In this document: positions 15,263-49,430 of the stretch, in pieces
How the letters are laid out: every line of letters begins with the position of its first letter
Numbering within the stretch: the first letter of the stretch is position 1
From: Desulfovibrionaceae bacterium
Lineage (GTDB): Bacteria; Desulfobacterota; Desulfovibrionia; Desulfovibrionales; Desulfovibrionaceae
Reading direction: 5' to 3'
Assembly (NCBI GenBank): GCA_016932995.1
Contig: JAFGBU010000026.1
Location: 1 to 64,000, forward strand
DNA: 64,000 nucleotides
Translations under genes and position numbers: made by a program
Notes under the pieces: model-generated
The model's input: only the letters and a program-made list of their open reading frames with translations
The model's database searches: none
Told to the model about the DNA's origin: nothing

Positions 15263-15268
15263 GGGGAC

Positions 15269-17171: not shown

Positions 17172-17255
17172 GGTCGTGGCCATGAAGGGTGTCTATATGT
17201 TGAAGCGCGGGCCTTGGCTCGAATGCCGAGGGGTCTTGAATCCGGGGGGCGGATC

Positions 17256-29207: not shown

Positions 29208-29243
29208 GGCCGTGGAGAACGCTTAAAATCGGGCGGAGGGTGC

Positions 29244-29636
29244 ATGGAGAAGACAAGGGTGCTTGTCGTGGACGACGAGAGGGACTTCGTCGAGCTGTTC
29301 ATAAACCGGTTCAGCAAGCGGGACCTGGACGTGGCCGGGGTCACCAGCGGGGCCGAGGCCCTGGACTATCTCGACCAACACGAGGTCGACGTGGTCGTGC
29401 TCGACGTCAAGATGCCCGGCATGGACGGTCTGGAGACCTTGCAGGAGATCAAGAAGAGGCATTCGTTCGTGGAGGTCATAATGCTCACCGGCCACGGCTC
29501 GGTGCAGTCCGGGCTGGACGGCATGAGCTACGGGGCATACGACTACATACTCAAGCCGTTCAAGATCGACGATCTCCTGAAGCGCATACACAAGGCCAGC
29601 GAGAGGAAGCTCCTCAAGGCCAAGGGCGGGGCGTGA
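29244..29636 (+). CDS. Single-domain response regulator
   Basis: A 130-residue receiver (VLVVDDERDFVELF; phospho-Asp in VVLDVKMPGMDG; Thr switch MLTGHGSV; Lys LKPFKIDDL) with a short basic tail and no output domain. It lies between two histidine kinases and overlaps the start of the second by four bases (GTGA). It is closely related to the receivers at 30606 and 42420 (shared MLTGH or VLTGH switch and helical tail). It is a likely phosphate acceptor in a relay. Confidence 0.92.
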   Translation: MEKTRVLVVDDERDFVELFINRFSKRDLDVAGVTSGAEALDYLDQHEVDVVVLDVKMPGMDGLETLQEIKKRHSFVEVIMLTGHGSVQSGLDGMSYGAYDYILKPFKIDDLLKRIHKASERKLLKAKGGA

Positions 29637-30574
29637 GAAGCGAGAGGTCTTACGAGCTGGGGCCGCTCACCGAGCTGGTCCTCAGGTACGCCCTTCCAGG
29701 GGCGGTGCTCATCTTCTGCGTGCTCTCGCATTTCGCCGAGGCCTGGCAGAGCGTGCTCATGGGCCTGGCCCTGTGCCTGGCCGTGCTGGTCACGGCCCAT
29801 ACGCTGACCTCCAAGATCAGGCGCATCAGCCTGCGCAAGTCCGAGCTGGACATCCAGCTCATTCAGTCCCAGAAGATGGCCGCCATCGGCGTGCTCTCGT
29901 CCGGCGTGGCGCACGAGATCAACACCCCCCTGGCCATCATCAGCCAGGAGGCGGAGCTGATCCAGCACGCCTTTGGCCGGGGGGTCCTGGAGGGTCTCAA
30001 GGAGGCCCCGGAAATAAAGGATTCCGTGGCCCAGATAGTGCTCCAGGTAGACCACTGCCGGGAGATAACCCACAAGCTTTTGAGCTTCGCGCGCAAGAGG
30101 GAGGCCATCTCCCAGGAGACGAACATCAACGGCCTGATCGAGGATATGGTCCAGTTGGTGGAGCGGGAGGCCAAGCTGAACAACATTCGGATAAATCGGA
30201 AATACGCCCAGGGCCTGCCTCCGGTGGTCACGGACCCGTCCCTGCTGCGCCAGGTGGTCCTGAACCTGCTGAACAACGCGGTCCAGGCCATCCAGGACGG
30301 CGGCGAGGTGACCGCGAGCACCGGGCTGGAGGGCCAGAACATCGCGGTCATGAAGTTCACGGACACCGGGTGCGGCATTTCCAAGGACGACCTGGCGAAC
30401 ATCTTCAATCCGTTCTTCACGACCAAGCCGCCGGGCAAGGGCACCGGCCTGGGCCTGTCCATCTGCCTGACCATATTGGAGCGCCTGGGCGGGACGGTCA
30501 GCGTACAGAGCGAGCCCGGCAAGGGGACCACATTCGCGGTCAGGCTGCCGGTCGGCCGCAGGGTGGGGCAATAA
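29633..30574 (+). CDS. Short membrane-anchored histidine kinase
   Basis: 313 residues. The N-terminus has two closely spaced hydrophobic helices (about 15-55) with almost no periplasmic loop, then HisKA with H94 in GVAHEINTPLAI and HATPase (NLLNNAVQAI, DTGCGISKDD, GTGLGLSICL). The absence of a sensor domain suggests it senses the membrane or works with the Cache kinase upstream. I chose GTG 29633, which overlaps the receiver stop (GTGA) and follows AAGGGCGGGG. A receiver gene follows 31 bases downstream. Confidence 0.88.
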   Translation: MRSERSYELGPLTELVLRYALPGAVLIFCVLSHFAEAWQSVLMGLALCLAVLVTAHTLTSKIRRISLRKSELDIQLIQSQKMAAIGVLSSGVAHEINTPLAIISQEAELIQHAFGRGVLEGLKEAPEIKDSVAQIVLQVDHCREITHKLLSFARKREAISQETNINGLIEDMVQLVEREAKLNNIRINRKYAQGLPPVVTDPSLLRQVVLNLLNNAVQAIQDGGEVTASTGLEGQNIAVMKFTDTGCGISKDDLANIFNPFFTTKPPGKGTGLGLSICLTILERLGGTVSVQSEPGKGTTFAVRLPVGRRVGQ

Positions 30575-30605
30575 GAGCAATCAATCTAAAAAAGGGGGGA
30601 TTCAT

Positions 30606-31001
30606 ATGACGCTTGAGACCAGCGTGCTTGTGGTGGACGACGAGGAGCGGTTCAGCAGCAACATGGTCAAGCTGCTGCAGGTGAACAAGATCAAGGCCAA
30701 GGCCGTGAACAGCGGCGAGGCCGCGCTCAAGGACGTGGCCGAAAACCAGTACGACGTCATCCTCTTGGATGTGAAGATGCCCGGGCTCACCGGCACGGCC
30801 ACCCTGAAGCGGCTGCGCGAGGCCGGGTGTTCGGCCAAGGTCATCGTGCTCACCGGCCACGCCTCGGTGGACGACGCGGTGGAGCTTCTGAACACCGGGG
30901 CCTACGACTACCTGCTCAAGCCGTGCAAGACCGAGAAGCTGCTCAAGATGATCGGCATGGCCCACGAGCAGAAGATGATGGAGGACAAGGGCGTTTCCTG
31001 A
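30606..31001 (+). CDS. Single-domain response regulator
   Basis: A 131-residue receiver (VLVVDDEERFSSNM; phospho-Asp in ILLDVKMPGLTG; Thr switch VLTGHASV; Lys LKPCKTEKL) without an output domain. It is last of the kinase-receiver-kinase-receiver run at 27552-31001. It converges, 27 bases away, on the dikinase-like gene at 31029-33635. A paralogous receiver (42420) directly precedes the second dikinase-like gene, so receivers of this type and dikinase-like proteins are neighbours twice. Confidence 0.92.
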   Translation: MTLETSVLVVDDEERFSSNMVKLLQVNKIKAKAVNSGEAALKDVAENQYDVILLDVKMPGLTGTATLKRLREAGCSAKVIVLTGHASVDDAVELLNTGAYDYLLKPCKTEKLLKMIGMAHEQKMMEDKGVS

Positions 31002-31028: not shown

Positions 31029-33635
31029 CTACATGGCCCCGGGGTCGAAGTGGTAGTTTTCCTCGCGAAAACACTTGGCCACCGCCTCGACGCTGGCCTC
31101 GTTGACCATGAGCATGTCCATCTGTCTGGTGAATTGGAGCAGGCGGCCGAGGCTCTCCAGCCTTTGCTGGAGGACCTCCTGTTCGTATTTCTGGATCCGG
31201 GCCACCACGCGGTCGCCCGTGACCTGGACCTCGAAGCCGAGCTCCTCGAGCATCAGGGCGATGGCCCGGGCCCTCCTGTTCCGGCGCAGGTCGTTGGCCG
31301 CGCCGCCCTTGAACTGGAACTGGATGTAGTTGTTGTTGACCCTGAGCCCGCAGTAGGCGTCCAGGATGCTGTAGTGGTAGCCGACCCGGGAGCTGAAGTT
31401 CAGGTACTTGTCCGAGATAATGGCGTAGCTCTTGTCGCCGAAGCGCTCTCCGGCCATGTCCGGCTTTGAGAGCATCTGCTGGCTGACGACCGAGAAAAAG
31501 CCCTTCAGGTCGACCGGCCTGGGCTCCATGCTCCGGAGCCCCTTGTGGAGCATGCCGTTCAAAAGGGCCCTGAAGGGCGCGGACACGACCTGGTCCTGAT
31601 TCACCTTGCGGCCGGCGGCCGCCGCGTCCCTGACGCCGCCTCCGAGGTCGATCACATACAGGTCCAGGGGGATGGGGGCGACGAGTTTCCTGGCCACCTC
31701 GCCCTGGTCCGAGACCACGTCGCTGATGGCGAACATCTCGGTGTAGCAGAACTCGTGGATCAGGCGCATGAGGTCGTGGACGGTCTTGCAGTTGGCCGGG
31801 GTGAAGGCCTCTGACTTGGGGTCCATGAGGTTCAGGGGCACGACCAGGTCGGCCAGCTCGCGCAGGGTGTCGTAGACCGGGGTGCCCTTCATGAGCGCGC
31901 CCCTTTCCTGGACCAGCCTGGCCAGCTCCTCGACCCGGCCCCGGTAGACCCGGCCGGAATAGGCGTCCACGGTTATTTCCTCGTCCTGGCGCAGGTCCCT
32001 GGACGCGGTTGCCGTGTTCAGTATGGACGGCACCCGGTACTCCCTGGCCAGGGAGGCCATGTGGCCGGTGACGCTGCCCGAGTCCGTGAGCAGGGCCTTG
32101 GCCTTGGGAAGGACGAGGCCGTATTTGGGCGAGGCGTGCTCGGCCACCAAGACGGCGCCTTCCGGAAAGCGGGTCAGGTCCTGGTCCTGTCTGACGTGGA
32201 ACACGCGGCCGAAGCCCACTCCCGGATAGGCCACCCCCTGGCCCTTGAGCACGACCTCGTACCCGGGCACCAGGTCCAGGTCGTCCTGGCCGGCCTCGGC
32301 CGCGCCGGGCTCGGTGCGCAGGGGCCGGGCCTGGAGCAGGATCAGCCTGTCCTCGGCGTCCAGGGCCCATTCGATGTCCTGGGGCGATCCGAAATGCCTC
32401 TCCAGGGCCAGGCCGTAGCCGGCCAGGACTTGGGCCTGTTCGTCCGTGAGGCAGGGCCTCTGCTGAAGCGCGGGCTCAACGGCCTCCTCCTCGACCACCC
32501 CGCCCGCCTTGTCCACCAGGCGCACGTTCTTGGTCGAGATGTCCCTGCGCAACAGGCGCGGCGGGTCGTCCTTGGAAAACACGTACACGTCCGGGGTGAC
32601 CACCCCGTCCACGGCGTAGGCCCCCAGGCCCCAGACCGCGTTGACCATGATGTTGTCCTCCAGGAGCCTGAACGGGTGCCGGGTGTACATGACCCCGCTG
32701 GCCTTGGAGGAGACCATTTCCAGGCAGGCCACGCTCATGGCGATGTCGTCCACGGGCACGCCCTGGTGCAGCCTGTAGGACAGGGCCCGGGGGGTGAACA
32801 GGCTGGCCAGGACCTGCTTGTAGGCGTCCAGGATCTTGGACCTGGGCACGTTGAGCACGGTCAGGTACTGCCCGGCAAAGGACAGCTCGCTGTCCTCGCC
32901 GATGGCGCTGCTGCGCAGGGCGACCGGGACCTCGTCGCGGCCGGCCTCCCGGCACATGGCCTCGTAGGCGGCCTCGATCTCGGCGCTTAAGGCCTCGGGG
33001 ACCTGGGCCATGATGAACAGGCGCTGGATGTCCTCGCTCGCCCGGACAATGGTTTCGGTGTCGTTCGGATCGAGCTCCAGCTTGAACCTGCGGATCTCGT
33101 CCATGCATTCGTTGGCCTCGATGAAGGCCCGAAAGGCGTCCGTGGTGATGGCGAACCCGCTCGGGATGGGCAGCTTGGCCTTGCTCTTGATCTCGCCCAG
33201 GTTGGCGTTCTTGCCGCCCACGCAGTCGACCATGTCCTTGGATATCTCCGCGTACTGGCGGATGTCGCCGCAGCTTGCGTGCTCGCGCTTGCGCTCGGTG
33301 ACCGCGTTGATGCGCTCCCTGAGCCCGGACATGACCTTCTTGAGGATGGGATACCTGCGGCCCGAGAGCTGATCGTAGCCCCTGACCATGCGCTCGGCGT
33401 GAAAGACCAGCCTGGAGGACTGGGAGCGCACAAAGGACAGGCCGAAGACCACGTCGCCCCGGAGCTTTTCCTCCATTTCCGTGATTAGCTGCAGCAGCTC
33501 GGAGTTGGAGTCCAGGACCTCCTTGAAGTTCGAGTACTTGATCTTGAAGGCCTGGCCGGCCTCGGCCTGGCCGCCGGCGGCGCGTGCGCCCTTGAAGAAG
33601 TTGAGTACCCGTCGGAACATTTCAGCTCCCGCCAA
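31029..33635 (-). CDS. PEP-synthase/PPDK-like phosphotransferase with novel C-terminal domain (copy 1)
   Basis: 868 residues. Region 1-115 is a helical N-terminal domain. Residues about 125-450 form the PPDK/PEP-synthase ATP-binding domain (VGGKNANLGEI, PIPSGFAITTDAF, ALRSSAIGEDSELSFAGQY, SGVMYTRHP). Residues about 470-590 form the swivelling phosphohistidine domain with catalytic His H525 in SVTGHMASLARE. The remaining ~270 residues do not resemble the PEP/pyruvate TIM barrel (no such motif is visible). By analogy with rifampin phosphotransferase, the acceptor could be something other than pyruvate. It sits 14 bases after a sigma54-activator gene on the same strand. A paralog is at 42892. 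Confidence 0.85.
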   Translation of the reverse strand: MAGAEMFRRVLNFFKGARAAGGQAEAGQAFKIKYSNFKEVLDSNSELLQLITEMEEKLRGDVVFGLSFVRSQSSRLVFHAERMVRGYDQLSGRRYPILKKVMSGLRERINAVTERKREHASCGDIRQYAEISKDMVDCVGGKNANLGEIKSKAKLPIPSGFAITTDAFRAFIEANECMDEIRRFKLELDPNDTETIVRASEDIQRLFIMAQVPEALSAEIEAAYEAMCREAGRDEVPVALRSSAIGEDSELSFAGQYLTVLNVPRSKILDAYKQVLASLFTPRALSYRLHQGVPVDDIAMSVACLEMVSSKASGVMYTRHPFRLLEDNIMVNAVWGLGAYAVDGVVTPDVYVFSKDDPPRLLRRDISTKNVRLVDKAGGVVEEEAVEPALQQRPCLTDEQAQVLAGYGLALERHFGSPQDIEWALDAEDRLILLQARPLRTEPGAAEAGQDDLDLVPGYEVVLKGQGVAYPGVGFGRVFHVRQDQDLTRFPEGAVLVAEHASPKYGLVLPKAKALLTDSGSVTGHMASLAREYRVPSILNTATASRDLRQDEEITVDAYSGRVYRGRVEELARLVQERGALMKGTPVYDTLRELADLVVPLNLMDPKSEAFTPANCKTVHDLMRLIHEFCYTEMFAISDVVSDQGEVARKLVAPIPLDLYVIDLGGGVRDAAAAGRKVNQDQVVSAPFRALLNGMLHKGLRSMEPRPVDLKGFFSVVSQQMLSKPDMAGERFGDKSYAIISDKYLNFSSRVGYHYSILDAYCGLRVNNNYIQFQFKGGAANDLRRNRRARAIALMLEELGFEVQVTGDRVVARIQKYEQEVLQQRLESLGRLLQFTRQMDMLMVNEASVEAVAKCFREENYHFDPGAM

Positions 33636-33649
33636 GGATCTTTTCGCCC

Positions 33650-36232
33650 CTAGGGCTTGGCCGCGACGACGTATCTGGTGGACGGCCCCCGGCCGACCTT
33701 GTTCAGCAACCCCTTTGCCACTAGGTCCTGGAGATCGTAAAGCGCGGTCCGCGCGGGCAGGTCCCCGCCGACGATGTTCTGGTAGTCGGTGCGGCCTATC
33801 TTGCCGAGTTTGAGGATTTGAGGAAAGGCCTTTTTTTGGCGCGGGCTCATGCCGAGCTTGGGCATGGCCGGTTCGGGGTCTTGGCCTGGCTGCTCGTTTG
33901 TCCGGTCCGCGGCCGGGGGCTGGTCGGCAAGAGGGGTCCCGGGCTCCCGGGCCGGGGCGTCGTGTTGCTCGCGCACGGGCCTGGACACCAGGTCGCTGAC
34001 CACTGCGGCCGGTCCGTCCAGGGTGCCGATGGGCGTCTCGCCCTCCAGATTGATGTCCGTGGCCTGGATCAGCTCGCCCTCGACCATGACCGCGGCCCTG
34101 GTGATGCAGTTGATGAGCTCGCGCACGTTGCCCGGCCAGTCGTAGTCCCTCATCTTGACCAGGGCGCCCCTGCTCAGGCCCAGGCCGTGTTTGTTCATGA
34201 TGCTTTCGGAGCGCTTCAGGAAGTACAGGGCCAGAAGGGGGATGCTTTCCTTGTGCTCCCTGAGCGGCGGGGTGTGGACGGTCAGGACCTTGAGCCGGAA
34301 GTAGAGGTCCTCGCGGAACAGCCGCTGGTCGATGAGCGCGGACAGGTCGGCGTTGGTCGCGGCCACCAGCCTCACGTCCACGTCCACCTCCCGGTCGCTG
34401 CCCAGGGGCTTGACCTTGCGCACCGCGATGGCCCTGAGCAGGGACTGCTGGACCCTTTGCGAGGCGGCCTGGATCTCGTCCAGGAACAGGGTCCCGGCGT
34501 TGGCCTCCAGGAAGGCGCCCTTGCGCTCGGTCTTGGCCTCGGTGAAGGCGCCCCTGACGTGGCCGAACAGGGCGTCCAGGAGCAGGTTCTCGTCCAGGGC
34601 CCCGCAGTTGATGGCGATGAAGGGCTTGCTGGCCCGGCCGCTGTGGTTGTGGATGGCCTCGGCGGCCAGCTGCTTGCCGGTCCCGGTCTCGCCCACCAGG
34701 AGCACGTCCACGTCCACCCTGGCGGCCTTCAGGATGTCCGACTTGAGCTGCTCGATCTTTGGGCCCTGGCCGAGGATTTCCGGCAGGGGGTCCCGGGCCT
34801 GCTCGTCCAGGGGGCCGAACATGGCCTCGTCTATGGGGGCCTTCTGCTTGAGCCTGACCGAGCGGATGGTCTCGTCGCGGATGCGGATCTCCTCCATCTG
34901 GTCCTTCATGGTCGAGATCATGCCGTTGACCGCGTTTATGAGCAGGCCGGTCTCGTAACCGGAGTAGGGCAGGTCGATCTGGTCCAGGGTCTCTCTGGAA
35001 TGCATGGCGCTGACCGCCTCGGACAGCCTGAGGATGGGATTGCTGATCACCCGGCTGAGCAGGTAGATCAGCGTGGCCAGGGCGAAGATGGCCGAGAGGG
35101 TGATGATCAGCATGACGTCGAGCTGCTTGTAGCCCGCGGCCAGGGGAAGCCTCGAACGGTCGATGTAGGCGATGCCGGCGTAGATGATGGGCGGCTTGCC
35201 CTCGTTTTGGGTGAAGATGACCGGGGCGTATGACAGGAAGTAGCTCTGCACGAGGCTCGACTCCTCCAGCTTGTCCGGGAGGGTCAGGAGGTCGGACTTG
35301 CCGAGCCGGATGTCGTTGACCATCTTCCAGTAGTGCTTGTTCACCGAGGCCGGCCTGAAGGCGCAGGAAAGGCCCGGCTTTCCCAGGGTGCCCTCGAAAC
35401 CGGAGCGCACTTGGTAGGTGGCCAGGTCGGGGTCCTTGCGCTCGACGTCCTCGGACTGGAACAGTATCCAGCCGCTGGGTTCGAACATGTAGCTGAAGCG
35501 GGGCTCCGGGGTCCTGGGATAGGCCCAGATCGGGGACTTCGGGGAGTTGTACAGGCTCAGGACGTCGCGCACCTTGCGCACGTCCAGGCCGAGGAGGAGC
35601 AGGCCGGGCCTGGAGTCGCCCCCCATGGCGTACGGCGTGGCGAAGCGGATGATGTGGTAGGAGGCGATGTTGTTGGCGTTTTCAATGGTCGGCAGGGGGT
35701 AGTGGACCTCCAGGACCTCGGATATCCAGACCTCGCCGGTTTCGAGGGGGTAGGCCTTTTGCAGGCTCACAAAGGGGTTGGGCTTGATCTGATCGATTTT
35801 TGCCGGGGCCATGGACCGGACCCCGTCCGGCTGGGAGACCAGAAACACGTGGCCGTCCCCCTGGGCCGAGATGTAGGCCAGCTCCCTGTAGCCCTTGCGG
35901 ACCACGGTCTTTTGGCCGATCAGGAAGTCGCGCATCCTGGTCTCGTCAAGGGCCTGCTGGGTGATGTACAGCAGGTCGCGGCGGCACGAATCCAGCAATC
36001 CGTTGATCTCGTGGGTCAGGGCCAGGGTCTGGACCCTGACGTTCCTCTGCAGGGCTATGTCCAGGTAGGTGTCGGACAAATGATAGGTGATGTAGCCGGT
36101 TATCATGAGCACAATGACCACCGAGGGGATCAGGGTGGTCATGAGCTTGGTCTTCAGGCTCAGGGATCGGAAGCCGAAGGCGCTGCTGAACAGGCTGAAT
36201 ATCCTGGTGTTTATGGGGGCGAATATGGCCAT
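33650..36232 (-). CDS. Membrane-bound sigma54 activator with Cache-like sensor and winged-helix tail
   Basis: About 860 residues. It has TM1 (about 30-50), a large extracytoplasmic sensor, TM2 (about 370-392), HAMP, and an AAA+ sigma54-interaction domain (about 475-710; Walker A GETGTGKQ, Walker B GTLFLDEI, Arg-finger region FREDLYFRLKVL, NVRELIN). The sigma54-contact loop reads GAFTEA instead of the usual GAFTGA. The C-terminus is not a FIS-type helix-turn-helix but looks like a winged helix (RTALYDLQDLVAKGLL, then GRGPSTRYV). I chose ATG 36232 (MAIFAPINTRIF); the open frame runs to GTG 36301. The dikinase-like gene follows in the same operon. Confidence 0.88.
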   Translation of the reverse strand: MAIFAPINTRIFSLFSSAFGFRSLSLKTKLMTTLIPSVVIVLMITGYITYHLSDTYLDIALQRNVRVQTLALTHEINGLLDSCRRDLLYITQQALDETRMRDFLIGQKTVVRKGYRELAYISAQGDGHVFLVSQPDGVRSMAPAKIDQIKPNPFVSLQKAYPLETGEVWISEVLEVHYPLPTIENANNIASYHIIRFATPYAMGGDSRPGLLLLGLDVRKVRDVLSLYNSPKSPIWAYPRTPEPRFSYMFEPSGWILFQSEDVERKDPDLATYQVRSGFEGTLGKPGLSCAFRPASVNKHYWKMVNDIRLGKSDLLTLPDKLEESSLVQSYFLSYAPVIFTQNEGKPPIIYAGIAYIDRSRLPLAAGYKQLDVMLIITLSAIFALATLIYLLSRVISNPILRLSEAVSAMHSRETLDQIDLPYSGYETGLLINAVNGMISTMKDQMEEIRIRDETIRSVRLKQKAPIDEAMFGPLDEQARDPLPEILGQGPKIEQLKSDILKAARVDVDVLLVGETGTGKQLAAEAIHNHSGRASKPFIAINCGALDENLLLDALFGHVRGAFTEAKTERKGAFLEANAGTLFLDEIQAASQRVQQSLLRAIAVRKVKPLGSDREVDVDVRLVAATNADLSALIDQRLFREDLYFRLKVLTVHTPPLREHKESIPLLALYFLKRSESIMNKHGLGLSRGALVKMRDYDWPGNVRELINCITRAAVMVEGELIQATDINLEGETPIGTLDGPAAVVSDLVSRPVREQHDAPAREPGTPLADQPPAADRTNEQPGQDPEPAMPKLGMSPRQKKAFPQILKLGKIGRTDYQNIVGGDLPARTALYDLQDLVAKGLLNKVGRGPSTRYVVAAKP

Positions 36233-36260
36233 CTTCTTTGCAACTCGCAGGTCTTGTTTA

Positions 36261-36310
36261 TTGCGCAAATTTTTCGCGCAAAAAACAGGTTTTGTCAACA
36301 CGCAAAAAAA
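36261..36310. promoter_or_regulatory. Candidate enhancer for the sigma54 activator
   Basis: TTGCGCAA (36261-36268) is followed by GCGCAA (36276-36281) and two CGCAAAAAA elements (from 36278 and 36301). They lie about 70-120 bases upstream of the sigma54 promoter at 36380, a usual distance for an enhancer. The same TTGCGCAA plus A run recurs at 38878-38891, upstream of the second sigma54 promoter. The match is by eye only. Confidence 0.4.
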
Positions 36311-36379
36311 ACAAATTTTCCAACATGCTGAAAATATGAGAATAGCGGCCTGCCGGTCGTGTTCTCAGGGGGTCTCCGG

Positions 36380-36396
36380 TTGGCATGCGACTTGCT
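36380..36396 (+). promoter_or_regulatory. Sigma54 promoter (-24/-12) for the chemoreceptor gene
   Basis: The sequence TTGGCATGCGACTTGCT has GG and GC ten bases apart, matching TGGCAC-N5-TTGC with one change (T for C at the sixth base). It points toward the chemoreceptor at 36700, leaving a leader of about 290 bases. A sigma54 activator gene diverges from the same region. Confidence 0.7.
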
Positions 36397-36699
36397 GAAC
36401 GGCATCACGCAGACAAGGGCGCGGCCCCGCGTGCGGGGCGTTATTCCTGAACGGGCCTCGGTTGTCCGAAAGGATTTTTGTTTTTTTTGATTATAAATAG
36501 GATATAAAGAAAATATGAATATGAATCTTGCCGGAGGCTGAGGATTGTTTGCGCCCTGCTCCCGGCAACGCCTGGGGGCGGACGGGGCCACGGCGTGGTC
36601 GGCTGTCCGGGGGTGGGCAAGGCCGGGTCTTTGCCCGGGCCGGCGCGGAAAGGAATGACAACCTTCGCTTCGGGTAATCAAGAAAACGGAGGCCGTGTG

Positions 36700-38664
36700 A
36701 TGGGCGTAAGGCAAAAGATGTATTTGCTGCTGGGGATAGTGATCTTTGGGTTCACGCTGATCTTTGCGGTCAACAAGATCGGCAACAATATCCTGTCCGG
36801 GATGCTCGACCTCCAGGTCCTGGCCAAGGACGGCCGCATGGATCTCTTGCAGGCCCGAAGACAGGAAAAAAACTTCTTCATGCGCAAGGAGCTCAAATAC
36901 ATCGACGCCCTTGAAAAGAGCGTCAAGTCCATCTCCGACAAGTTGGCCTTTATCAAGGCCAAGGACTCCGGGATGGCCGGTGATTGTGACAAGGCCTTGG
37001 CCTTTTTGAAGGCCTATCAGAAGGATTTTCAGGACATGGCCAGGATCGAGCAGGAGATCGGCCTCACCGAGAAGGAGGGCCTGCGCTGGCAGTTCATTGT
37101 CGCGGCCAGGGCCCTTGAGAAGGAGTTCAAGCAGTTCGACGACACCGGGTTCGTCATCGGCCTGCTCCAGATGCGCAGACAGGAGAAGAACTATCAGCTG
37201 CGCAGGTCCGACGAGTACCTGGGAAAAATGAACGCCGACCGCCAGAAGCTGGTGGACCGCGTGGACTCCTCGGAGCTGTCTTCAAGCGAGAAGGCCAAGC
37301 TCATGGAGGTGCTCAAGGCCTATGACGAGGCCTGGGGCGCCTATGTCCGGGACCTCAAGACCGAGGAGGAGACAGAGGCCTCCCTGATCAAGTCCGCCAG
37401 GGACCTCGAGCCGGCCATCGAGAAGGTCGAGGCCCACTACAACGCCAAGAGGGACGAGCTGTCCAGGCAGCTGGACCTGGCCACCCTGGGCATAGAGATA
37501 TCCGCGGCCGCGGTGGTGACCCTGATCATCCTCTGGCTGGTGGTCTCCATCACCAGGCCCTTGGCCGCGTTGCAGGCCTTTGCCCACGAGGTCGCGGCCG
37601 GAAATCTCAAGGCCAAGCCCAAGGGCGAGTTCAAGGCCGAGTTCGGGCAGCTGTGCGTGAACATCACGGGCATGATCGCCCAGATCGAGGAGCAGTTCGC
37701 GGCCGCCAAGGGCAAGGAGCAGGAGGCCCGGGAAAACGCGGAAAAGGCCATGGCGGCCATGGAGGACAGCCGGGCCAAGGAGGCCCGGCTGGGCGAGATG
37801 GTCGAGAGGATGCGCCAGGTGGCCAAGGACGCGGACCAGATAGCCGAACGGGTGTCCTCGGCCTCTGAGGAGCTTTCGGCCCAGGCCGAGCAGATCAACA
37901 AGGGGGCCCAGCTCCAGCGCGAACGCGTCGAGGAGACGGCCACGGCCATGGAGCAGATGAACGCCACGGTCATGGAGGTCGCCAGGAACGCCGGCGACGC
38001 CTCGAGCAACACCTCGGACGCCAGGAGCAAGGCCGAGGAGGGGGCCGAGGTCGTGAACCGGGCGGTGGGCGCGATCCAGCGGGTCAACACCCTGGCCGAG
38101 GGGCTCAACGCGAACATGCGCCAGCTCGGCAACCAGGCCGAGTCCATCGACCAGGTCATGAACGTGATCAGCGACATCGCCGACCAGACCAACCTGTTGG
38201 CGCTCAACGCGGCCATCGAGGCCGCCCGGGCCGGCGAGGCGGGCCGCGGCTTCGCCGTGGTCGCGGACGAGGTCCGCAAGCTGGCCGAGAAGACCATGGG
38301 CGCGACCAAGGAGGTCGGCGAGAACATCGCCGCCATCCAGGAGGCCACGCGCAGGAACATCCAGCACATGGAGGAGGCGGCCATGGCCGCCAAGCAGGCC
38401 ACCGAGCTGGCCAACGAATCCGGCCAGACCCTGAACGAGATCGTGAGCCTGGTGGAGCAGAACGCCAGCCAGATGGCGAACATAGCCACCGGCGCGGAGC
38501 AGCAGTCCGCGGCCTCGGAGCAGATCCACCAGGCCCTTGAGGACGTCAACAGGATCGTGGGAGAGACCACGGACAGCATGGGCCAGTCCACCCAGGCGAT
38601 ACACGAGTTGGCCTCCATGTCCGAGAACCTGCGCAAGCTGATCTTGGAGCTCAATGTAGGCTGA
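36700..38664 (+). CDS. Methyl-accepting chemotaxis protein with HBM sensor domain
   Basis: 654 residues: TM1 (about 6-25), an HBM periplasmic sensor (about 26-265) with signatures [11 protein letters not shown] and [13 protein letters not shown]2 (about 268-290), HAMP, and a long cytoplasmic MCP coiled coil. The hairpin tip is visible near residue 500 ([36 protein letters not shown]). There is no C-terminal CheR/CheB pentapeptide. ATG 36700 follows GGAGG. It likely signals to a CheA/CheW system encoded elsewhere. The sensor type is shared with the kinase at 25545, and a sigma54 promoter lies upstream. Confidence 0.95.
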
Positions 38665-38692
38665 CCCGTCCGGAGACGGGATTTCATATCCA

Positions 38693-38728
38693 GGCCGGCC
38701 CGGCTCAAAGAGCCGGGCCGGCCTTTTT
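38693..38728 (+). terminator. Rho-independent terminator after the chemoreceptor gene
   Basis: Fourteen-base arms (GGCCGGCCCGGCTC at 38693-38706 and its exact complement at 38710-38723) surround an AAA loop and are followed by TTTTT. It begins 28 bases after the stop codon. Confidence 0.92.
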
Positions 38729-39022
38729 CACGGCCAGGCCAGGCAATCTCGCAACGGACCCGGTAGGCCAGCCGGGGCGCGGGACGCGATGCGCAACGGT
38801 CCGGGTGGCAAATGGGCGGCCTGCGCATGCTCAAGGCCCCGAACAGCACGGTCCTTTGCCGGGACGCGCCCCTGCGCTTGCGCAAAAAAACTGTCCCGCA
38901 AGCCGGATTTGCTGGATTGCCCAGGGACGCGGGCCTCCGGGAGGCGGGGATTTTTGCCGGATTTCAAGACGCATCTTTTTGTTTTTATGGGATTTTATAT
39001 CTAAAATTATACCCCGTCAGGT

Positions 39023-39039
39023 TTGGCACAAGCCTTGCT
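39023..39039 (+). promoter_or_regulatory. Sigma54 promoter (-24/-12) for the TauE/SafE operon
   Basis: TTGGCACAAGCCTTGCT matches the consensus TTGGCAC-N5-TTGCT with all invariant bases (GG and GC ten bases apart). It faces the gene at 39292 and the downstream TauE, receiver and dikinase-like genes, leaving a leader of roughly 240 bases. TTGCGCAA at 38878-38885, about 140 bases upstream, is a candidate enhancer. Confidence 0.78.
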
Positions 39040-39291
39040 GGAGTGTTGTGCGAATGTAAGATGATTGCGTGGTTTTCTGGCCTGATCCCAGGGGCCTTGG
39101 CCATAGCCGGAAGGGCATTGGCAAGGGCATTGCCGGAAAAGCCCGGGCCGCTTGCCCGGCATCGCAAACCAAGGAGGGCGCTTAAGGCCGCAACAATCTT
39201 GCAGGCATTTGAACAACGGATCAGGGGTCCGGAGGGCGGCGCGGTCGCGGCCGGGCCAGGGAATGGAAACACTGTAAAACTGGAGGATGGT

Positions 39292-39588
39292 ATGCGTAAA
39301 AGGATCGCAAGCCTGTTCGCCATCGGGGCGGCGCTCAACCTGCTTTTGCCCGTCCTGGTCTGGGCGGGGGGGCCGAAGGCCGTCGACCTGGTGGTCGTGG
39401 CGGACACCCGGGTCCTTAGCGGGGTCAACAAGTACTTCGCCAACCTTTACAACACCAACATTTTCCTGTTCGCCATCTGGGCGGTCGTGCTCACGGCCGT
39501 TCTGGGTTGCGTGCTCGGCTGGATCATGGACATCATCATGATGCGCACCGGCCTGGACCTCAAGTCCAGGAAAATCGTGGAACACTAA
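39292..39588 (+). CDS. Small membrane protein preceding TauE/SafE transporter
   Basis: 98 residues: a signal-anchor or cleavable signal at the N-terminus (RIASLFAIGAALNLLLPVLVWA), a ~40-residue external segment, and a C-terminal membrane helix (IFLFAIWAVVLTAVLGCVLGWIMD). GGAGG precedes ATG 39292. It ends 18 bases before the TauE/SafE gene, so it is probably co-translated and could be an accessory subunit. I do not recognise a family. It is first gene behind the sigma54 promoter. Confidence 0.78.
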   Translation: MRKRIASLFAIGAALNLLLPVLVWAGGPKAVDLVVVADTRVLSGVNKYFANLYNTNIFLFAIWAVVLTAVLGCVLGWIMDIIMMRTGLDLKSRKIVEH

Positions 39589-39606
39589 GCCTGGGAGAGG
39601 TGAAAT

Positions 39607-40635
39607 ATGGACTGGTTGTACATGCACATGCCCATCTCGGGCGTTGAGATCCTCTGGCCCGGCCTGGTGCTCATCGGCTTCTCCGTCGGCGTCATCGGCG
39701 GGTTCTTCGGAATGGGCGGGGCCTGGATGGTCACGCCGGGCCTGAACATCCTCGGTTTCCCCATGGCCTTCGCCATCGGCACCGACATCGCCCACATCGC
39801 GGGCAAATCAATGGTTTCGACCATGCGCCACTCCAAGTTCGGGAACGTGGACTACGTGCTGGGCTTCGTCATGGTGGTCGGCACCATGGTCGGCATCGAG
39901 ATCGGCGCCCAGCTGGTCATGGCCCTTGAACGCATAGGCCTGGTCGGGTCCGCAGTGCGCTGGGTCTATGTCTGCGTGCTCGCCCTGATCGCCTACATGG
40001 TCTTCAGCGACTACGCCAAGGCGGTCAAGAAGAAGAAGATGGGCGACGTGGACAAGGAAAAGGGCGCCGAGGGCATCATCTGGTACAAGACCCTGCACAA
40101 GATAGCCATCCCCCCGATGGTGAACTTCAAGGTCTCCGGCTTCCGCTGCTCCGCCTGGCTGCCCATTGTCGTCAGCCTGGTCTGCGGCATCCTGGCCGGC
40201 TTCCTGGGCATCGGCGGCGGCCTGCTGCGCATGCCCTCCCTGGTCTACCTGATCGGCTGCCCGACGCACATCGCGGTCGGCACCGACCTGTTCGAGGTCA
40301 TGATCTCCGGCCTGTACGGCGCCTTCACCTACACCTTGAAGGGCCGCATCGAGATCATCGCCGTGTTCGTCATGCTCACCGGCGCGGCCATCGGGGCCCA
40401 GATCGGAACCGTGGCCACCAAGTACTCCAAGGGCTACGGCATCCGCATCGCCTTCGGCCTGGCCGTCCTGTGCTGCATGGTCTCCATCATCCTCAAGCAG
40501 CTCAAGTACGACGCCCCGGCCGCGGTCCTCATCCTGACCGCCATCGGCCTGATCTGCGCCTACATCATGAAGATCATGTTCCAGGGCGCGGCCAAGGAGC
40601 TGAGGGACAAGAAGGCCGGAGCGGCCGCCAGCTAG
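39607..40635 (+). CDS. TauE/SafE-family anion exporter/permease
   Basis: A 342-residue membrane protein with about eight helices and the family's internal duplication: GGFFGMGGAWMVTP near residue 31 and AGFLGIGGGLLRMPSL near 200. A charged cytoplasmic loop separates the halves (KKKKMGDVDKEKGAEG, about 138-153). Family members move sulfite, sulfoacetate, taurine or other organosulfur/carboxylate anions. In a sulfate reducer a sulfur oxyanion or short organic acid is plausible, but the substrate is not determined. Gene order is small TM protein, TauE/SafE, secreted protein, small TM protein, membrane protein, receiver, dikinase-like. Confidence 0.92.
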   Translation: MDWLYMHMPISGVEILWPGLVLIGFSVGVIGGFFGMGGAWMVTPGLNILGFPMAFAIGTDIAHIAGKSMVSTMRHSKFGNVDYVLGFVMVVGTMVGIEIGAQLVMALERIGLVGSAVRWVYVCVLALIAYMVFSDYAKAVKKKKMGDVDKEKGAEGIIWYKTLHKIAIPPMVNFKVSGFRCSAWLPIVVSLVCGILAGFLGIGGGLLRMPSLVYLIGCPTHIAVGTDLFEVMISGLYGAFTYTLKGRIEIIAVFVMLTGAAIGAQIGTVATKYSKGYGIRIAFGLAVLCCMVSIILKQLKYDAPAAVLILTAIGLICAYIMKIMFQGAAKELRDKKAGAAAS

Positions 40636-40672
40636 GGGCCGAACCCAAAAGGTAACATCGGGGAGAACAGAA

Positions 40673-41017
40673 ATGAGAAAGAAAATAGCGATCAGCGTAA
40701 TCTGCACGTTCCTCCTCAGCCTTTGCCTCTGCGGCGCGGCGATCGCGGCCGAGGCCGAGGTGCTCCAGGGCAAGACCCTGGAGTTCAACAAGGAGGCCAA
40801 GACCCTGACCATCGAGGAGTATGACCTCAACTTCGACAAGGAGTTCAAGTACGGCCATCCCACGGGCATCCAGAGCACCGTGGACCTGACCAACGCCCAG
40901 GTCGGCATCGAGCCGGCGCCCGGCGACATCGTCAGGATCGCCTACTATCCCAAGGGCGATGTCAAGGACGCCATCAAGGTTCAGAACGTGACCAAGCAGA
41001 ACCTGATGAAGAAGTAG
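40673..41017 (+). CDS. Small exported beta-rich protein of unknown function
   Basis: 114 residues with a Sec signal peptide (KKIAISVICTFLLSLCLCGAAIAAEAE) and a mature domain of about 88 residues. That domain looks like a small OB/SH3-type barrel (VLQGKTLEFNKEAKTLTIEE, PAPGDIVRIAYYPKGDVKDAIKV). It follows TauE/SafE by 37 bases with GGGGAG near the start. Its periplasmic location next to a transporter suggests ligand or metal handling, but I recognise no defined family. Confidence 0.8.
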   Translation: MRKKIAISVICTFLLSLCLCGAAIAAEAEVLQGKTLEFNKEAKTLTIEEYDLNFDKEFKYGHPTGIQSTVDLTNAQVGIEPAPGDIVRIAYYPKGDVKDAIKVQNVTKQNLMKK

Positions 41018-41033
41018 AACCCCCACTCGCAGG

Positions 41034-41076
41034 TCGGGGCCCGTCCTTGCGGCCGGGCCGCAGGGGCGGGCCCCGA
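41034..41076 (+). promoter_or_regulatory. Nested stem-loop inside the TauE operon
   Basis: TCGGGGCCCG (41034-41043) pairs with CGGGCCCCGA (41067-41076), enclosing a second stem GCGGCC/GGCCGC. It fills most of the 81-base gap between the secreted protein and the next gene. It has no T tract. It may attenuate or stabilise the upstream transcript so that distal genes are expressed at a different level. Confidence 0.5.
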
Positions 41077-41098
41077 TGATCAAAACCAGGGAGCCGGA

Positions 41099-41341
41099 AT
41101 GCTTGAGAACAAGACCAATCTGAAGCAGAAGATAGTCATCGTCTGCATGGACGTCCTGCTCCTGGCCGAGCTGTGCCTGAGCATCTACCTCGGCTATCAC
41201 GACAAGGAGAACATCACCCTCATCTTTCTGCGCACCTTTGTCCCCCTGTGCCTGGCCACGGTCGTCTGCGCCCGGATATTGATCAGGCGTTTCAGCGACC
41301 TTCGGGGCCAGGAGGTGGCGCTTTCCGAAAAGAAGGGGTAA
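41099..41341 (+). CDS. Small two-helix membrane protein
   Basis: 80 residues with two predicted membrane helices (KIVIVCMDVLLLAELCLSIYLG and ITLIFLRTFVPLCLATVVCARIL) joined by a short charged loop (YHDKEN). The C-terminal tail is charged. An AGGGAG site lies just before ATG 41099. It is part of the TauE operon by position. It has no recognised family. Confidence 0.75.
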   Translation: MLENKTNLKQKIVIVCMDVLLLAELCLSIYLGYHDKENITLIFLRTFVPLCLATVVCARILIRRFSDLRGQEVALSEKKG

Positions 41342-41447
41342 CAAGCCGTCCTGCGGGCGGGGCCGCCCCTGGCCCGCTTGAGGAAAATGCGGACGCCGTG
41401 TCCGCCCGGCGCCGCCGGCGGCTTCACTCAAACCCCCTTTGCATCTT

Positions 41448-42269
41448 GTGAGAATACCGGACAAACTGCTTACCGCCCTAACCATTGCGCTCATGGCCGT
41501 GCTGGCCGTGTCGGTCTTCGACACCTGCCACGGCAAGCCGGACTCGGAGAACGTCTTTTACGGCCTGACCGGGTCCGCTGACTTCATCACCGGCAAGCTC
41601 AAGACCGGCCCGCATCTGGATTTGGGCATCGGCGAAGAGGCCGACGAGGCCATGACCGAGGAGGCCCTGGACTTCGTCTCGGACAACCCCCTGCTCAACG
41701 TCCGTTTTTTAGAGGTCAAGGGGCGTTTCTGGCGCGGCCTGCTCGAGGTCCCCAGGGACGCCAAGCCCGGCGACTACAGCTTAACGGTTTTTCTCACCGG
41801 CATGTCCTTCGCGGGCGAGCCCAGATACACGGTCAAGGTCTATAGCGACGAGAACGCCTACAAGGCCCAGTTCCGTTCCTACACGGAGCGCAGGTTCGGG
41901 TTCAGGCCGATCTGGATCGCCGTGGCGGCCCTGTTTCTTTTGGCTTACTGCCTGTATGCCTCCTACCGGCGCTCCGAACGCAGGCTTTCGGTCCTCCAGT
42001 CCGAGGGCGTGGGCCCGATCTACAAGCTGGCCAAGCCCAGGAAGGCCACCCAGTGGGAGGTCCTCTTCGGGCTGGGCGCAAGGCACGGGGTCAAGCAGGG
42101 CGACCGCCTTGTGCTTCTGGACAGGAACATGAACGTGGTCGGCGAGATCACGGCCAGCAAGGTCGAGGACGAGGCCTCCTGGGCCCTGGTCGACCTTGAT
42201 AAAAATATCCACCACAGTTACCTTGTGGCCCTGGAAAGGAAAGGGCCTTCGGACCGCGGGGAGCGATAG
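41448..42269 (+). CDS. Bitopic membrane protein with periplasmic domain and cytoplasmic SH3-like domain
   Basis: About 273 residues: TM1 (about 6-25), a periplasmic region (about 26-155) with an extended beta domain (FLEVKGRFWRGLLEVPRDAKPGDYSLTVFL), TM2 (about 156-178), and a cytoplasmic C-terminus. The last ~70 residues resemble a small beta barrel (GARHGVKQGDRLVLLDRN, MNVVGEITASKVED). No strong Shine-Dalgarno marks the start; GTG 41448 and TTG 41439 are both possible. It lies between the transporter genes and the receiver, so it could transmit an envelope signal to the receiver and dikinase-like protein. No family recognised. Confidence 0.75.
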   Translation: MRIPDKLLTALTIALMAVLAVSVFDTCHGKPDSENVFYGLTGSADFITGKLKTGPHLDLGIGEEADEAMTEEALDFVSDNPLLNVRFLEVKGRFWRGLLEVPRDAKPGDYSLTVFLTGMSFAGEPRYTVKVYSDENAYKAQFRSYTERRFGFRPIWIAVAALFLLAYCLYASYRRSERRLSVLQSEGVGPIYKLAKPRKATQWEVLFGLGARHGVKQGDRLVLLDRNMNVVGEITASKVEDEASWALVDLDKNIHHSYLVALERKGPSDRGER

Positions 42270-42419
42270 CCGCCGCCCGGCCCCCTTTGCCCGGGCCCCG
42301 GCGCGGGTCCGCCATGTCCTGAGGCCGGGATTTCGCGGCCCCGGCGCGGGCGTCTGCCGGGGCCCATAGCCTTTCTATCAACCCGCCGCCGGCGCGCGGC
42401 GTCCATAAAGGCGGCCAGC

Positions 42420-42809
42420 ATGAGCGAAATGCGAGTCCTTCTGGTTGACGACGAAGCGGAGTTCCTGGAAATCCTGACCAAGCGGCTCAAAAAGCGCAAT
42501 CTCGACGTGAGCCAGGCCTCGAGCGGACGCGAGGCCATAGCGGCCGTCCGGGAGGGGTCGTTCGACGTCGTGGTCCTGGACATGAAGATGCCGGACATGG
42601 ACGGGATCGAGGTCCTGCGCGAGATCAAGTCCCTGCGGCCCGGGGTCGAGGTGCTCATCCTCACCGGGCACGCCAACATGGAGGCGGCCGTGGAGGGCAT
42701 GGAGCTGGGCGCCTTTGACTACATGCTCAAGCCAGCGACCATCAACGAGCTGATCTTCAAGCTCGAGGACGCCTACAAGAAGAAGCAGGCCAGAGACAAC
42801 AGGGGTTGA
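42420..42809 (+). CDS. Single-domain response regulator
   Basis: A 129-residue receiver (VLLVDDEAEFLEIL; phospho-Asp in VVLDMKMPDMDG; Thr switch ILTGHANM; Lys LKPATINEL) with a basic tail KKKQARDNRG and no output domain. It precedes the second dikinase-like gene by 82 bases. It is paralogous to the receivers at 29244 and 30606. No kinase is encoded in its own operon, so it may be served by the kinases at 25545-30574. Confidence 0.92.
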   Translation: MSEMRVLLVDDEAEFLEILTKRLKKRNLDVSQASSGREAIAAVREGSFDVVVLDMKMPDMDGIEVLREIKSLRPGVEVLILTGHANMEAAVEGMELGAFDYMLKPATINELIFKLEDAYKKKQARDNRG

Positions 42810-42891
42810 GGGCCGTCTTGGCCCGCAAGCGCAACCGCGGGGGCCCGGCTCCCCACGCCCCGGCCCCGCAGACAAGGGTGACGCCAGGACC

Positions 42892-45492
42892 ATGGCCGGT
42901 TTCCTGACCGCGCTCAAGAGCCTGCTCGGCTGCGAAAAAAAGGCCGCCCTGACCGAGGCCGGGCAGGAGGCCTTGAAGCGCGCCTACAGGGATCGCTGCC
43001 AGCAGTTCAAGCTCCTTTTGGCGGCCAACAACCGCGCCCTGGAGGTCATGGCCGACATGGAGGAGGCCCTTCGCGGGGCCCGGCCCTTCGGCATGAACTA
43101 CGTCCGGGCCCAGTGCACCAGGGTGTCCTCCAACGTCTTTCAGATCGCCAAGGGCCTGAACGACATCTGCAACGGCAGGTACGAGGCCCTCTACGCCCGG
43201 TTCAAGGACATCCAGCTCAAGATCAACCCCCATGTCTCGGCCAAGCGGAGCGCCAAGTCCGGGCCCCTGGTCCTGCCCCTGAGCGAGGTGGACGCGGCCA
43301 TGGCCGGCGAGGTCGGCGGCAAGGTGGCCAACCTGGGGGAGATATGCAAACACCTCGGGCTCAGGATCCCCTCGGGCTTCGCGGTGACCGCCAGCGGGTA
43401 CCAGCGGTTCATGGACTTCAACGAGCTCCAGCCCGAGATCGACAGGCGCATCCAGGCGACCGACGCGCGCAGGCTGGACGAGGTCCACGCCCAGAGCTCG
43501 GACATCCAGCAGCTGATCATCCGCTCGGCCCTGCCCGAGGACCTGGAGCAGGCCATCGTCGAGCACTACCGGCGGCTGGAGTCCGAGGCCGGGGCCCGGG
43601 TGCGCGTGGCCATGCGCAGCAGCGCCCTGGGCGAGGACCTCTTGGACACCTCCTTTGCCGGCCAGTACCGTTCGGAGCTGAACGTGGGCGGCGGGGACCT
43701 GTTGCAGACCTACAAGGAGATAGTCGCCAGCAAGTACGGGGTCACGGCCATGACCTACCGCCTGAACAGGGGCATCCCGGACGAGGACGTGGCCATGTGC
43801 GTCGGCTGCATGGTCATGGTCGAGGCCGCGTCCGGCGGGGTGATGTACTCGCGCAACCCCATGAACATCCGCGACGACGCGGTGATCATCAACGCCATGA
43901 CCGGCCTGCCCAAGTCCATCGTGGACGGCAGCGTGAACCCGGACATCTTCGAGGTCTTACGGGCCCGGCCCATGGCCGTGCGCGGGCGCAGGATCGCGCT
44001 CAAGGACTACAAGTACGTCTGCGATCCCCAGGAGGGCGTCCGCCGGGTGGCCGTGACCGGGGACGAGGCCAACGAGTCGTCGCTGAGCGAGGAAAAGGTC
44101 CTGGAGCTGGCCGGGCTGGCCGTGCGCATAGAGGACTATTACGGCGCGCCCCAGGACATCGAGTGGGCCGTGGACGCCGGGGGCAGGGTGACCATCATCC
44201 AGGCCCGGCCGCTCAAGCAGATCGAGACTCTCGGGCCCGAGGCCCCTGCGCCGGCCGCCGGGGGGTCGGCCCTGTTGAGCGGCGGGATCACGGCCAGCCC
44301 CGGGGTGGCCGCGGGCGAGGTCTTCGTGGTCCGCAAGGACATGGACACCCTGCGCTTTCCGGACGGCGCGGTCCTTGTCGCGGCCCAGTCCCAGCCCCGC
44401 TGGGCCACGCTCCTGAACCGGGCCTCGGCCGTGGTCACGGAGATGGGCAGCGCGGTTGGGCATCTGGCCAACGTGGCCCGGGAGTTCGGCGTGCCGGCCA
44501 TCTTCGGCGCGGCCGGGGCGGTGCGGATATTGGAGGGCGCGGGCCTGGTGACCGTGGACGCCACGGGCCGGGCGGTGCACAGGGGCGAGATGCCGGAGCT
44601 CCTGGCCAGGCGCGAGAAGCCCAAGAACCTCATGGCCGGCAGCCCGGTGCACGAGGCCTTAAAGGCCGCGTCCGAGCACATCATCCCCCTGACCCTGCTC
44701 GACCCGGACTCGTCCGGCTTCAGGCCCGAGAAGTGCCGCACCTTTCACGACATCACCCGCTTCTGCCACGAGAAGTCGGTGCGCGAGATGTTCCAGATGG
44801 GCTCGAAGAACGCCTTTCTGGAGCACTCCAGCAAGCAGCTCGTCTGCGACGTGCCCATGCAGTACTGGGTCATCGACCTGGAGGACGGGTTCAAGGAGCG
44901 GGTCGAGGGCCGCACCGTGCATCTGGACAACATCGCCTCCAGGCCCATGCTCGCCATCTGGCGGGGCATGGTCGCCGCGCCCTGGTCCGGCCCGCCGCCC
45001 GTGGACGCCAGGGGCTTCATGTCCGTGCTCGCCGGGGCCGCGGCCAATCCGGACCTGGAGGCGTCCATGGGCTCGGCCTTTTCGGTGCGCAACTACTTCA
45101 TGATCTCCAAGACCTTCTGCAGCCTGCAGTCCAGGTTCGGGTTCCACTTCTCCACGGCCGAGGCCGTGGCCGGAGAGGACCCGGCCGAGAACTACATCAG
45201 CTTCCAGTTCAAGGGCGGGGCCGCGAGCCTGGACCGCAGGCTCCTGCGGGCCAGGCTGGTGGGCGGGATACTGGAGGACTTCGACTTCCGGGCCGAGATA
45301 AAGGAGGACGCGGTCTTCGCCAGGCTGGAGGGCTACCCGCGGGATTTCGTGGAGCAGCGCCTGGAGGTCCTGGGCTACCTGATAATCCACACCCGCCAGC
45401 TGGACATGGTCATGTCCGGCCCGGCGGCCGCGGCCGAGCACCGGGCCAAGATCATGGCCGATCTCGACAAATTGGGGCGCGACAAGGCCTAG
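42892..45492 (+). CDS. PEP-synthase/PPDK-like phosphotransferase with novel C-terminal domain (copy 2)
   Basis: 866 residues, paralog of 31029-33635. It has an N-terminal helical domain (1-115), an ATP-binding domain (about 125-445; VGGKVANLGEICKHLG, MRSSALGEDLLDTSFAGQYRSEL, SGGVMYSRNP) and a phosphohistidine domain with H524 in SAVGHLANVARE. A ~280-residue C-terminal domain is shared only with copy 1 here. Conserved C-terminal motifs are CxTxHD near residue 620 (CRTFHDITRFCHE), YISFQFKGGAA near 765 and VEQRLEVLGYLI. No PEP/pyruvate barrel is visible. It is last gene of the TauE operon, directly after a receiver. Confidence 0.85.
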   Translation: MAGFLTALKSLLGCEKKAALTEAGQEALKRAYRDRCQQFKLLLAANNRALEVMADMEEALRGARPFGMNYVRAQCTRVSSNVFQIAKGLNDICNGRYEALYARFKDIQLKINPHVSAKRSAKSGPLVLPLSEVDAAMAGEVGGKVANLGEICKHLGLRIPSGFAVTASGYQRFMDFNELQPEIDRRIQATDARRLDEVHAQSSDIQQLIIRSALPEDLEQAIVEHYRRLESEAGARVRVAMRSSALGEDLLDTSFAGQYRSELNVGGGDLLQTYKEIVASKYGVTAMTYRLNRGIPDEDVAMCVGCMVMVEAASGGVMYSRNPMNIRDDAVIINAMTGLPKSIVDGSVNPDIFEVLRARPMAVRGRRIALKDYKYVCDPQEGVRRVAVTGDEANESSLSEEKVLELAGLAVRIEDYYGAPQDIEWAVDAGGRVTIIQARPLKQIETLGPEAPAPAAGGSALLSGGITASPGVAAGEVFVVRKDMDTLRFPDGAVLVAAQSQPRWATLLNRASAVVTEMGSAVGHLANVAREFGVPAIFGAAGAVRILEGAGLVTVDATGRAVHRGEMPELLARREKPKNLMAGSPVHEALKAASEHIIPLTLLDPDSSGFRPEKCRTFHDITRFCHEKSVREMFQMGSKNAFLEHSSKQLVCDVPMQYWVIDLEDGFKERVEGRTVHLDNIASRPMLAIWRGMVAAPWSGPPPVDARGFMSVLAGAAANPDLEASMGSAFSVRNYFMISKTFCSLQSRFGFHFSTAEAVAGEDPAENYISFQFKGGAASLDRRLLRARLVGGILEDFDFRAEIKEDAVFARLEGYPRDFVEQRLEVLGYLIIHTRQLDMVMSGPAAAAEHRAKIMADLDKLGRDKA

Positions 45493-48220: not shown

Positions 48221-48253
48221 GCGGCCTCCCGCCTCGCCCGGCGGTTGTGACTC

Positions 48254-49390: not shown

Positions 49391-49430
49391 GGTCGTCTCC
49401 GTGCCCGTGACGCTGCCGGGCGTTCGAGTC

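Follow-up and report, generated by a model that had tools for sequence, protein, structure and literature searches.

The window, a stretch of 64,000 nucleotides from a bacterium of the family Desulfovibrionaceae, encodes two dikinase-like proteins that on balance appear to be ATP-dependent phosphotransferases of the swivelling-His type (PEP-synthase/small-molecule-dikinase superfamily), working in TauE anion-permease modules under two-component control. Their assignment to TauE-transport modules draws on the genomic linkage of the family and on a fourth member in the same genome, whose surroundings match the published 'nitrate cluster' of Desulfovibrio.

Two paralogues with a PEP-synthase-type core

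Copy 1 (31029-33635, minus strand; 868 amino acids from a TTG codon, with an alternative ATG at 33620) and copy 2 (42892-45492, plus strand; 866 amino acids) aligned end to end with 37% identity over 838 residues (E = 4e-175). They share a helical N-terminal domain, an ATP-grasp domain of the PEP-synthase type, a swivel domain with the catalytic His, and a C-terminus of ~290 residues. This layout, which an earlier note had read from the sequence, was reproduced by Pfam: PPDK_N matched residues 137-447 of copy 1 (32295-33227, minus; E = 3.4e-99) and residues 140-445 of copy 2 (43309-44226, plus; E = 2.3e-92), PEP-utilizers matched residues 490-561 (31953-32168, minus; E = 4.5e-18) and 489-558 (44356-44565, plus; E = 2.4e-17), respectively, and nothing matched past residue ~560 in either protein. 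All of the motifs quoted in that note were also found, namely TGHMASLARE and VGHLANVARE, CKTVHD and CRTFHD, QFKGGAA in both copies, and the LGxLL..TRQ helix. The catalytic His is His525 in copy 1 (32061-32063, minus) and His524 in copy 2 (44461-44463, plus). The C-terminal domains, of unclassified family, correspond to residues 575-868 of copy 1 (31032-31913, minus) and to positions 44611-45489 (plus) in copy 2.

Two family members had been recognized previously, whereas the source genome contains four. In a phylogenetic tree, each window copy grouped with its positional counterpart in loci L140 and L145, and the two-copy arrangement with orthologous pairs recurs in these other genera. The window copies are old paralogues maintained side by side and did not originate in a recent duplication. 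Of the 395 genomes sampled from the phylum, 145 (in 85 of 252 genera) carry the C-terminal domain, as do 89 of the 119 from the family to which the window belongs. A genome can have as many as nine matches, and many have three to nine; no plasmid homologues of the dikinase were found. At one locus (L114:10213-12384), a third, degenerate paralogue of 723 amino acids lies directly behind two intact ones. Most of its ATP-grasp and C-terminal motifs are lost, which would fit either a gene in decay or a pseudo-enzyme with a regulatory role.

Residue conservation was assessed in an alignment of 109 full-length homologues with E. coli PpsA. The swivel His (His525 of copy 1, aligned with H421 of PpsA) was invariant in 109/109 homologues, and the ATP-grasp residues K142, R241, E247, D248, E422, Q435, and R437 were likewise invariant and identical in PpsA. 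The model of the copy 1 ATP-grasp domain, which like that of the C-terminus was built on a 7-sequence alignment, matched PEP synthase 2ols with a Z score of 32.4 (304 aligned residues, rmsd of 2.8) and a rifampin phosphotransferase (RPH) structure with a Z score of 30. Given that the catalytic residues are invariant and that the ATP-grasp model matches both structures, these proteins are very likely ATP-driven phospho-His enzymes. The earlier classification as dikinase-type enzymes therefore holds at the residue level, with the ATP-grasp and phospho-His residues intact.

PEP synthase, as represented by PpsA, has the same ATP-grasp-swivel order, catalytic His, and nucleotide-site residues, whereas the window family has an extra helical N-terminal domain and no PF02896 barrel. 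The residue before the His is Gly in 100 of 109 homologues, compared with Cys in PpsA. Regulation through a Thr, as with PpsR, was considered and rejected: the position of the regulatory Thr of E. coli PpsA, two residues ahead of the His, is not conserved in the family (Thr in 53 and Ala in 45). RPH, HpeHI, and phenylphosphate synthase join the same ATP-grasp/swivel core to a non-pyruvate acceptor domain. The domain order of RPH is ATP-grasp, acceptor, swivel, whereas the swivel of the window family is in the middle, with the His at residue 525 of 868 and ~290 residues after the swivel. The RPH profile, which has a cut-off of 999 bits, scored 236-238 bits, and the best-matching stretch was the ATP-grasp part. 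The combination of an ATP-grasp domain, a swivel His, and a C-terminus that the barrel profile does not match would fit a small-molecule dikinase in the wide sense.

Gene clusters, partners, and sigma54 control

A gene for a sigma54 activator with a periplasmic sensor region, HAMP, and AAA+ domains (33650-36301, minus; Sigma54_activat E = 1.2e-58) lies directly upstream of copy 1, as the earlier note had stated, and this pair is divergent from a TauE operon that ends with a receiver gene and copy 2. The first gene of the operon encodes a membrane protein of ~100 amino acids (39292-39588, plus) belonging to the TM100 family, found in 37 loci. It continues with a TauE/SafE-family permease of 342 amino acids (39607-40635, plus; PF01925 at 39664-40482, E = 2.7e-40), a small secreted, DUF4881-like protein (40673-41017, plus; E = 7e-5, under the Pfam cut-off), a conserved 80-amino acid membrane protein (41099-41341, plus), the membrane-anchored 276-amino acid protein F7, which has no Pfam match and recurs in 29 loci (41439-42269, plus), and a single-domain receiver with Asp54 (42420-42809, plus; PF00072 E = 1.2e-31), which immediately precedes copy 2 on the same strand. 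A longer relative of the small secreted protein (F6, locus L096) matched DUF4881 with E = 2.6e-81.

On the other side of copy 1 is a run of two histidine kinases and two receivers in alternation (27552-31001). It consists of a sensor kinase of 551 amino acids (27552-29207, plus; assigned by histidine kinase-family grouping), a single-domain receiver (29244-29636, plus; PF00072 at 29259-29588, E = 4.9e-32), a shorter kinase of 313 amino acids whose GTG start overlaps the stop codon of the preceding receiver (29633-30574, plus), and, as the last gene, a single-domain receiver with Asp55 (30606-31001, plus; PF00072 E = 7.9e-30), which is on the opposite strand to copy 1 and convergent with it. 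Each dikinase thus has an adjacent receiver, as claimed previously. The same order of kinases and receivers, with a second kinase of ~310 amino acids, recurs beside dikinases in loci L082, L097, L101, L132, and L144, and the window layout as a whole recurs in other genera, for example in L140 and with small differences in L132 and L144.

Other genes in and around these clusters were also observed. A histidine kinase (25545-27371) and a chemoreceptor-like protein (36595-38664) flank copy 1 in the window and appear to share a helical periplasmic sensor with RRxEKNFxxR repeats. Upstream of the cluster, genes at 14000-17200 resemble an energy-converting [NiFe]-hydrogenase or complex-I-like module (CGIC and CxxC motifs), and positions 47195-53041 hold a second signalling block, which comprises a multi-PAS histidine kinase together with three response regulators whose output is HD-type (HD-GYP/HDOD-like). 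TM100, the 80-amino acid protein, F7, and a further protein, F5 (L083:7382-8104), are small membrane or periplasmic proteins whose families recur with TauE and dikinase genes; F5 accompanies a longer TauE type (~430 amino acids) and, like F7, is without a Pfam match. Five dikinase clusters (L086, L087, L091, L103, and L104) contain tandem universal-stress proteins and a protein resembling ADP-forming acyl-CoA synthetases with an acetyltransferase-like C-terminal part, and three others (L051, L052, and L109) contain a CBS protein and a DASS-type transporter.

We surveyed gene neighbourhoods in 106 loci including the window, in which 108 dikinases had complete flanks. A single-domain receiver was located within three genes of 74 of these 108 dikinases, so that a receiver is indeed a recurring neighbour in related genomes; a TauE permease was within the same distance of 63, and one or the other of 98. 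Among local control genes, the corresponding values were 14/32 for receivers and 1/32 for TauE, with the linkage counts being non-independent samples. Given that the receiver control was small (32 genes) and itself receiver-rich, the enrichment of receivers rests mainly on their genome-wide density. The source genome yielded 71 PF00072 matches in 2.48 Mb and only six TauE genes, and TauE is found within ~6 kb of every dikinase locus of this genome. The TauE permease is therefore the more specific partner of the dikinase. Receivers and PPDK-type enzymes are likewise combined in the REC-PPDK fusions of Bacteroides and Heimdallarchaeota, which the literature classes as response regulators whose output is enzymatic (PMC5847659); unlike in these fusions, the receivers in the window are separate genes.

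The link to sigma54 activators also extends beyond the window. For all 31 activators of the type associated with copy 1 in the surveyed loci, the next gene on the same strand encodes a dikinase, and 28 of the 31 are divergent from a TM100-TauE operon. A -24/-12-like sigma54 promoter (TGGCACAAGCCTTGCT; 39024-39039, plus) lies upstream of the TauE operon in the window. Sites of the form TGGCA[CT]-N5-TTGC were present within 500 bp of 13/24 such operons compared with 38/1150 other genes (Fisher p = 7e-13, a value that is too small because the genomes are related). A window-wide scan for sigma54 sites by itself revealed no excess over chance.

The nitrate cluster and possible roles of the dikinase

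The fourth copy, on contig C25 (locus L084), is encoded in the order DUF169, TauE, a 187-amino acid membrane protein, a PtxB-like protein, a sensor kinase, a 360-bp receiver gene, the dikinase, and a dual-specificity phosphatase. The same gene order has been given for DVU0251-DVU0245 and Dde_0597-0605, the Desulfovibrio 'nitrate cluster' (Korte et al. 2014, PMC4001038), and the family is thus not wholly unknown. Inhibition by nitrate, but not that by nitrite, was lost when DVU0246 (dikinase), DVU0247 (receiver), DVU0250, or DVU0251 (TauE) was disrupted by an insertion, a mutant of the phosphatase was still nitrate-sensitive, and the authors proposed a leaky thiosulfate transporter (PMC4001038). 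The gene order suggests that DVU0246, annotated with 744 amino acids, is a member of the dikinase family. The phenotype belongs to the nitrate-cluster paralogue, and transposon insertions may be polar; given that the dikinase gene is downstream of TauE and that the phosphatase is dispensable, however, polarity is not an easy explanation of the dikinase phenotype, and the nitrate-cluster dikinase seems to be needed for the module to work. The nitrate cluster resembles that of the window in bringing together a TauE permease, a single-domain receiver, and a PPDK-like protein. Its order is not that of the window copies, around which PtxB, DUF169, and the phosphatase are absent, and the window cluster differs in having two dikinases, a sigma54 activator, and another TauE type (only 27% identity to the nitrate-type TauE over 157 residues).

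As the invariant catalytic residues suggest, ATP bound in the ATP-grasp domain would phosphorylate the swivel His with AMP and Pi as products, after which the phosphoryl group would pass to an acceptor held by the C-terminal domain, which may have replaced the PEP/pyruvate barrel. This acceptor could be either a small anion or one of the module's proteins. The receivers would most likely be phosphorylated by the neighbouring histidine kinases and, given that they have no output domain, would act through protein contact, probably controlling the dikinase or the transport step. Control in the direction from receiver to dikinase is suggested by the REC-PPDK fusions, in which the enzyme is the output of a response regulator. 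By analogy with the nitrate cluster, the dikinase would be required for the TauE module to work rather than for ordinary PEP synthesis.

A catabolic role appears possible but rather unlikely. In this case the dikinase would phosphorylate an anion imported by TauE, such as an organosulfonate or carboxylate, as the opening step of its utilization, in a manner akin to that of phenylphosphate synthase or HpeHI, and the signalling genes would merely control expression. Replacement of the acceptor domain is established among small-molecule dikinases (PMC4844700, PMC12167813), and the C-terminus contains invariant, enzyme-like residues (H620, D621, R624, H627, H754, and R788, with R750 and N769 nearly invariant) that are consistent with such a role. 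No other catabolic gene was widely recurrent in the surveyed clusters, however, and single-domain receivers cannot by themselves control expression. Moreover, nitrate resistance resulting from loss of the dikinase, with TauE intact upstream, is difficult to explain for an enzyme that acts merely downstream of transport.

A bolder idea would be that ATP-fuelled phosphotransfer energises or gates the TauE permeases, with the dikinase, switched by the stand-alone receiver, in the role of enzyme I of the sugar PTS but with ATP in place of PEP; we consider this unlikely. If the idea were correct, TauE transport would depend on phosphotransfer, and the same nitrate resistance on loss of the dikinase, the receiver, or TauE would be explained.

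The earlier note had instead proposed a signalling phosphorelay in which the adjacent receiver would be phosphorylated on its Asp by the swivel His of the dikinase. A receiver is the direct neighbour of 48 of 108 dikinases and in 24 of 108 cases immediately precedes the dikinase on the same strand, both window receivers keep the phospho-acceptor Asp in their translations (D55 and D54), and nitrate-cluster mutants of the receiver and the dikinase behave alike, all of which would accord with such a transfer. In both the window and L084, however, genes for histidine kinases lie beside those of the receivers, and loci of genus g3 (Desulfovibrio-type) have the sigma54 activator, dikinase, and TauE operon with no receiver next to the dikinase. 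In addition, none of 140 dikinase ORFs was fused to a receiver, the REC-PPDK fusions suggest that the receiver controls the dikinase (PMC5847659), and a phosphorelay leaves the conserved C-terminal domain unexplained. Given that the neighbouring kinases can supply the receivers, phosphorylation of the receiver by the dikinase is possible but not favoured, and we regard it as unlikely. The proposed tie to two-component signalling thus stands in part: receivers do recur, but they are not the most specific partner, and kinases are encoded beside them in both the window and the nitrate-type cluster.

The C-terminal domain

The C-termini of 44 diverse members showed no consistent match to a Pfam or NCBIfam family, and a sequence profile search of the PDB with 9 and 44 C-termini as queries gave a best E value of only 0.25. 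The PF02896 barrel profile did not match either copy or the 44 diverse homologues; in a search of the whole genome, it matched only two other genes (C33 and C35) and none of the dikinase-like proteins. Comparison with the C-terminal barrel of PpsA gave an hhalign probability of 0.2%, and no sequence relation to RPH was found. A PEP/pyruvate TIM barrel was therefore rejected at the sequence level, in agreement with the earlier claim of a different acceptor domain. That the proteins are PEP synthase or PPDK paralogues with a merely diverged pyruvate-binding barrel, as their domain order and best NCBIfam matches (PEP synthase models) might suggest, is highly improbable, given that these matches end after the swivel and are far under curated cut-offs, that neither PF02896 nor hhalign supports it, that the barrel residues of E. 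coli PpsA fail to align, and that the predicted secondary structure is a mixture of beta-sheet and helices rather than eight beta/alpha repeats.

The predicted fold of the C-terminus was not barrel-like, in a model that is itself weak (mean pLDDT of 59.5 and pTM of 0.57, with pLDDT of 70-85 in the last ~90 residues). This low-confidence model consists of helices and a beta-rich part, with strands at 155-160, 164-171, 174-181, and 190-196 followed by a helix, a hairpin, and a helix. Foldseek returned no match at E < 0.001, and the best Z score with VIA-align (5.5, urea carboxylase) was at noise level. A phosphagen-kinase or McsB fold was not supported, with McsB as the top Foldseek row having an E value of only 0.1 (probability of 0.18) and hhalign giving 0.3% for McsB and creatine kinase, against their last ~100 residues.

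In the alignment of 109 homologues, H620, D621, R624, H627, F635, G694, G752, H754, G777, G778, R788, F801, and D840 of the C-terminus were invariant and R750, N769, and D808 nearly so, with the conserved motifs being HD..R..HE, R.G.H, NY..F.F.GGAA, and TRQ.DM. This conservation is firm, and the polar residues form an enzyme-like set.

In the openly searchable literature, outside of which most subscription papers lie, the acceptor domain, the wide distribution of the family, and its association with TauE and sigma54 control all appear to be undescribed. Our analysis points to a large, paralogue-rich family in sulfate reducers and related bacteria whose members are likely annotated as PEP synthase despite having a different acceptor domain, one that is not described in Pfam. 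The links to TauE, sigma54, and the nitrate cluster make nitrate resistance in Desulfovibrio, which bears on the control of oil-field souring, a biochemical question, that of the acceptor of the phospho-His.
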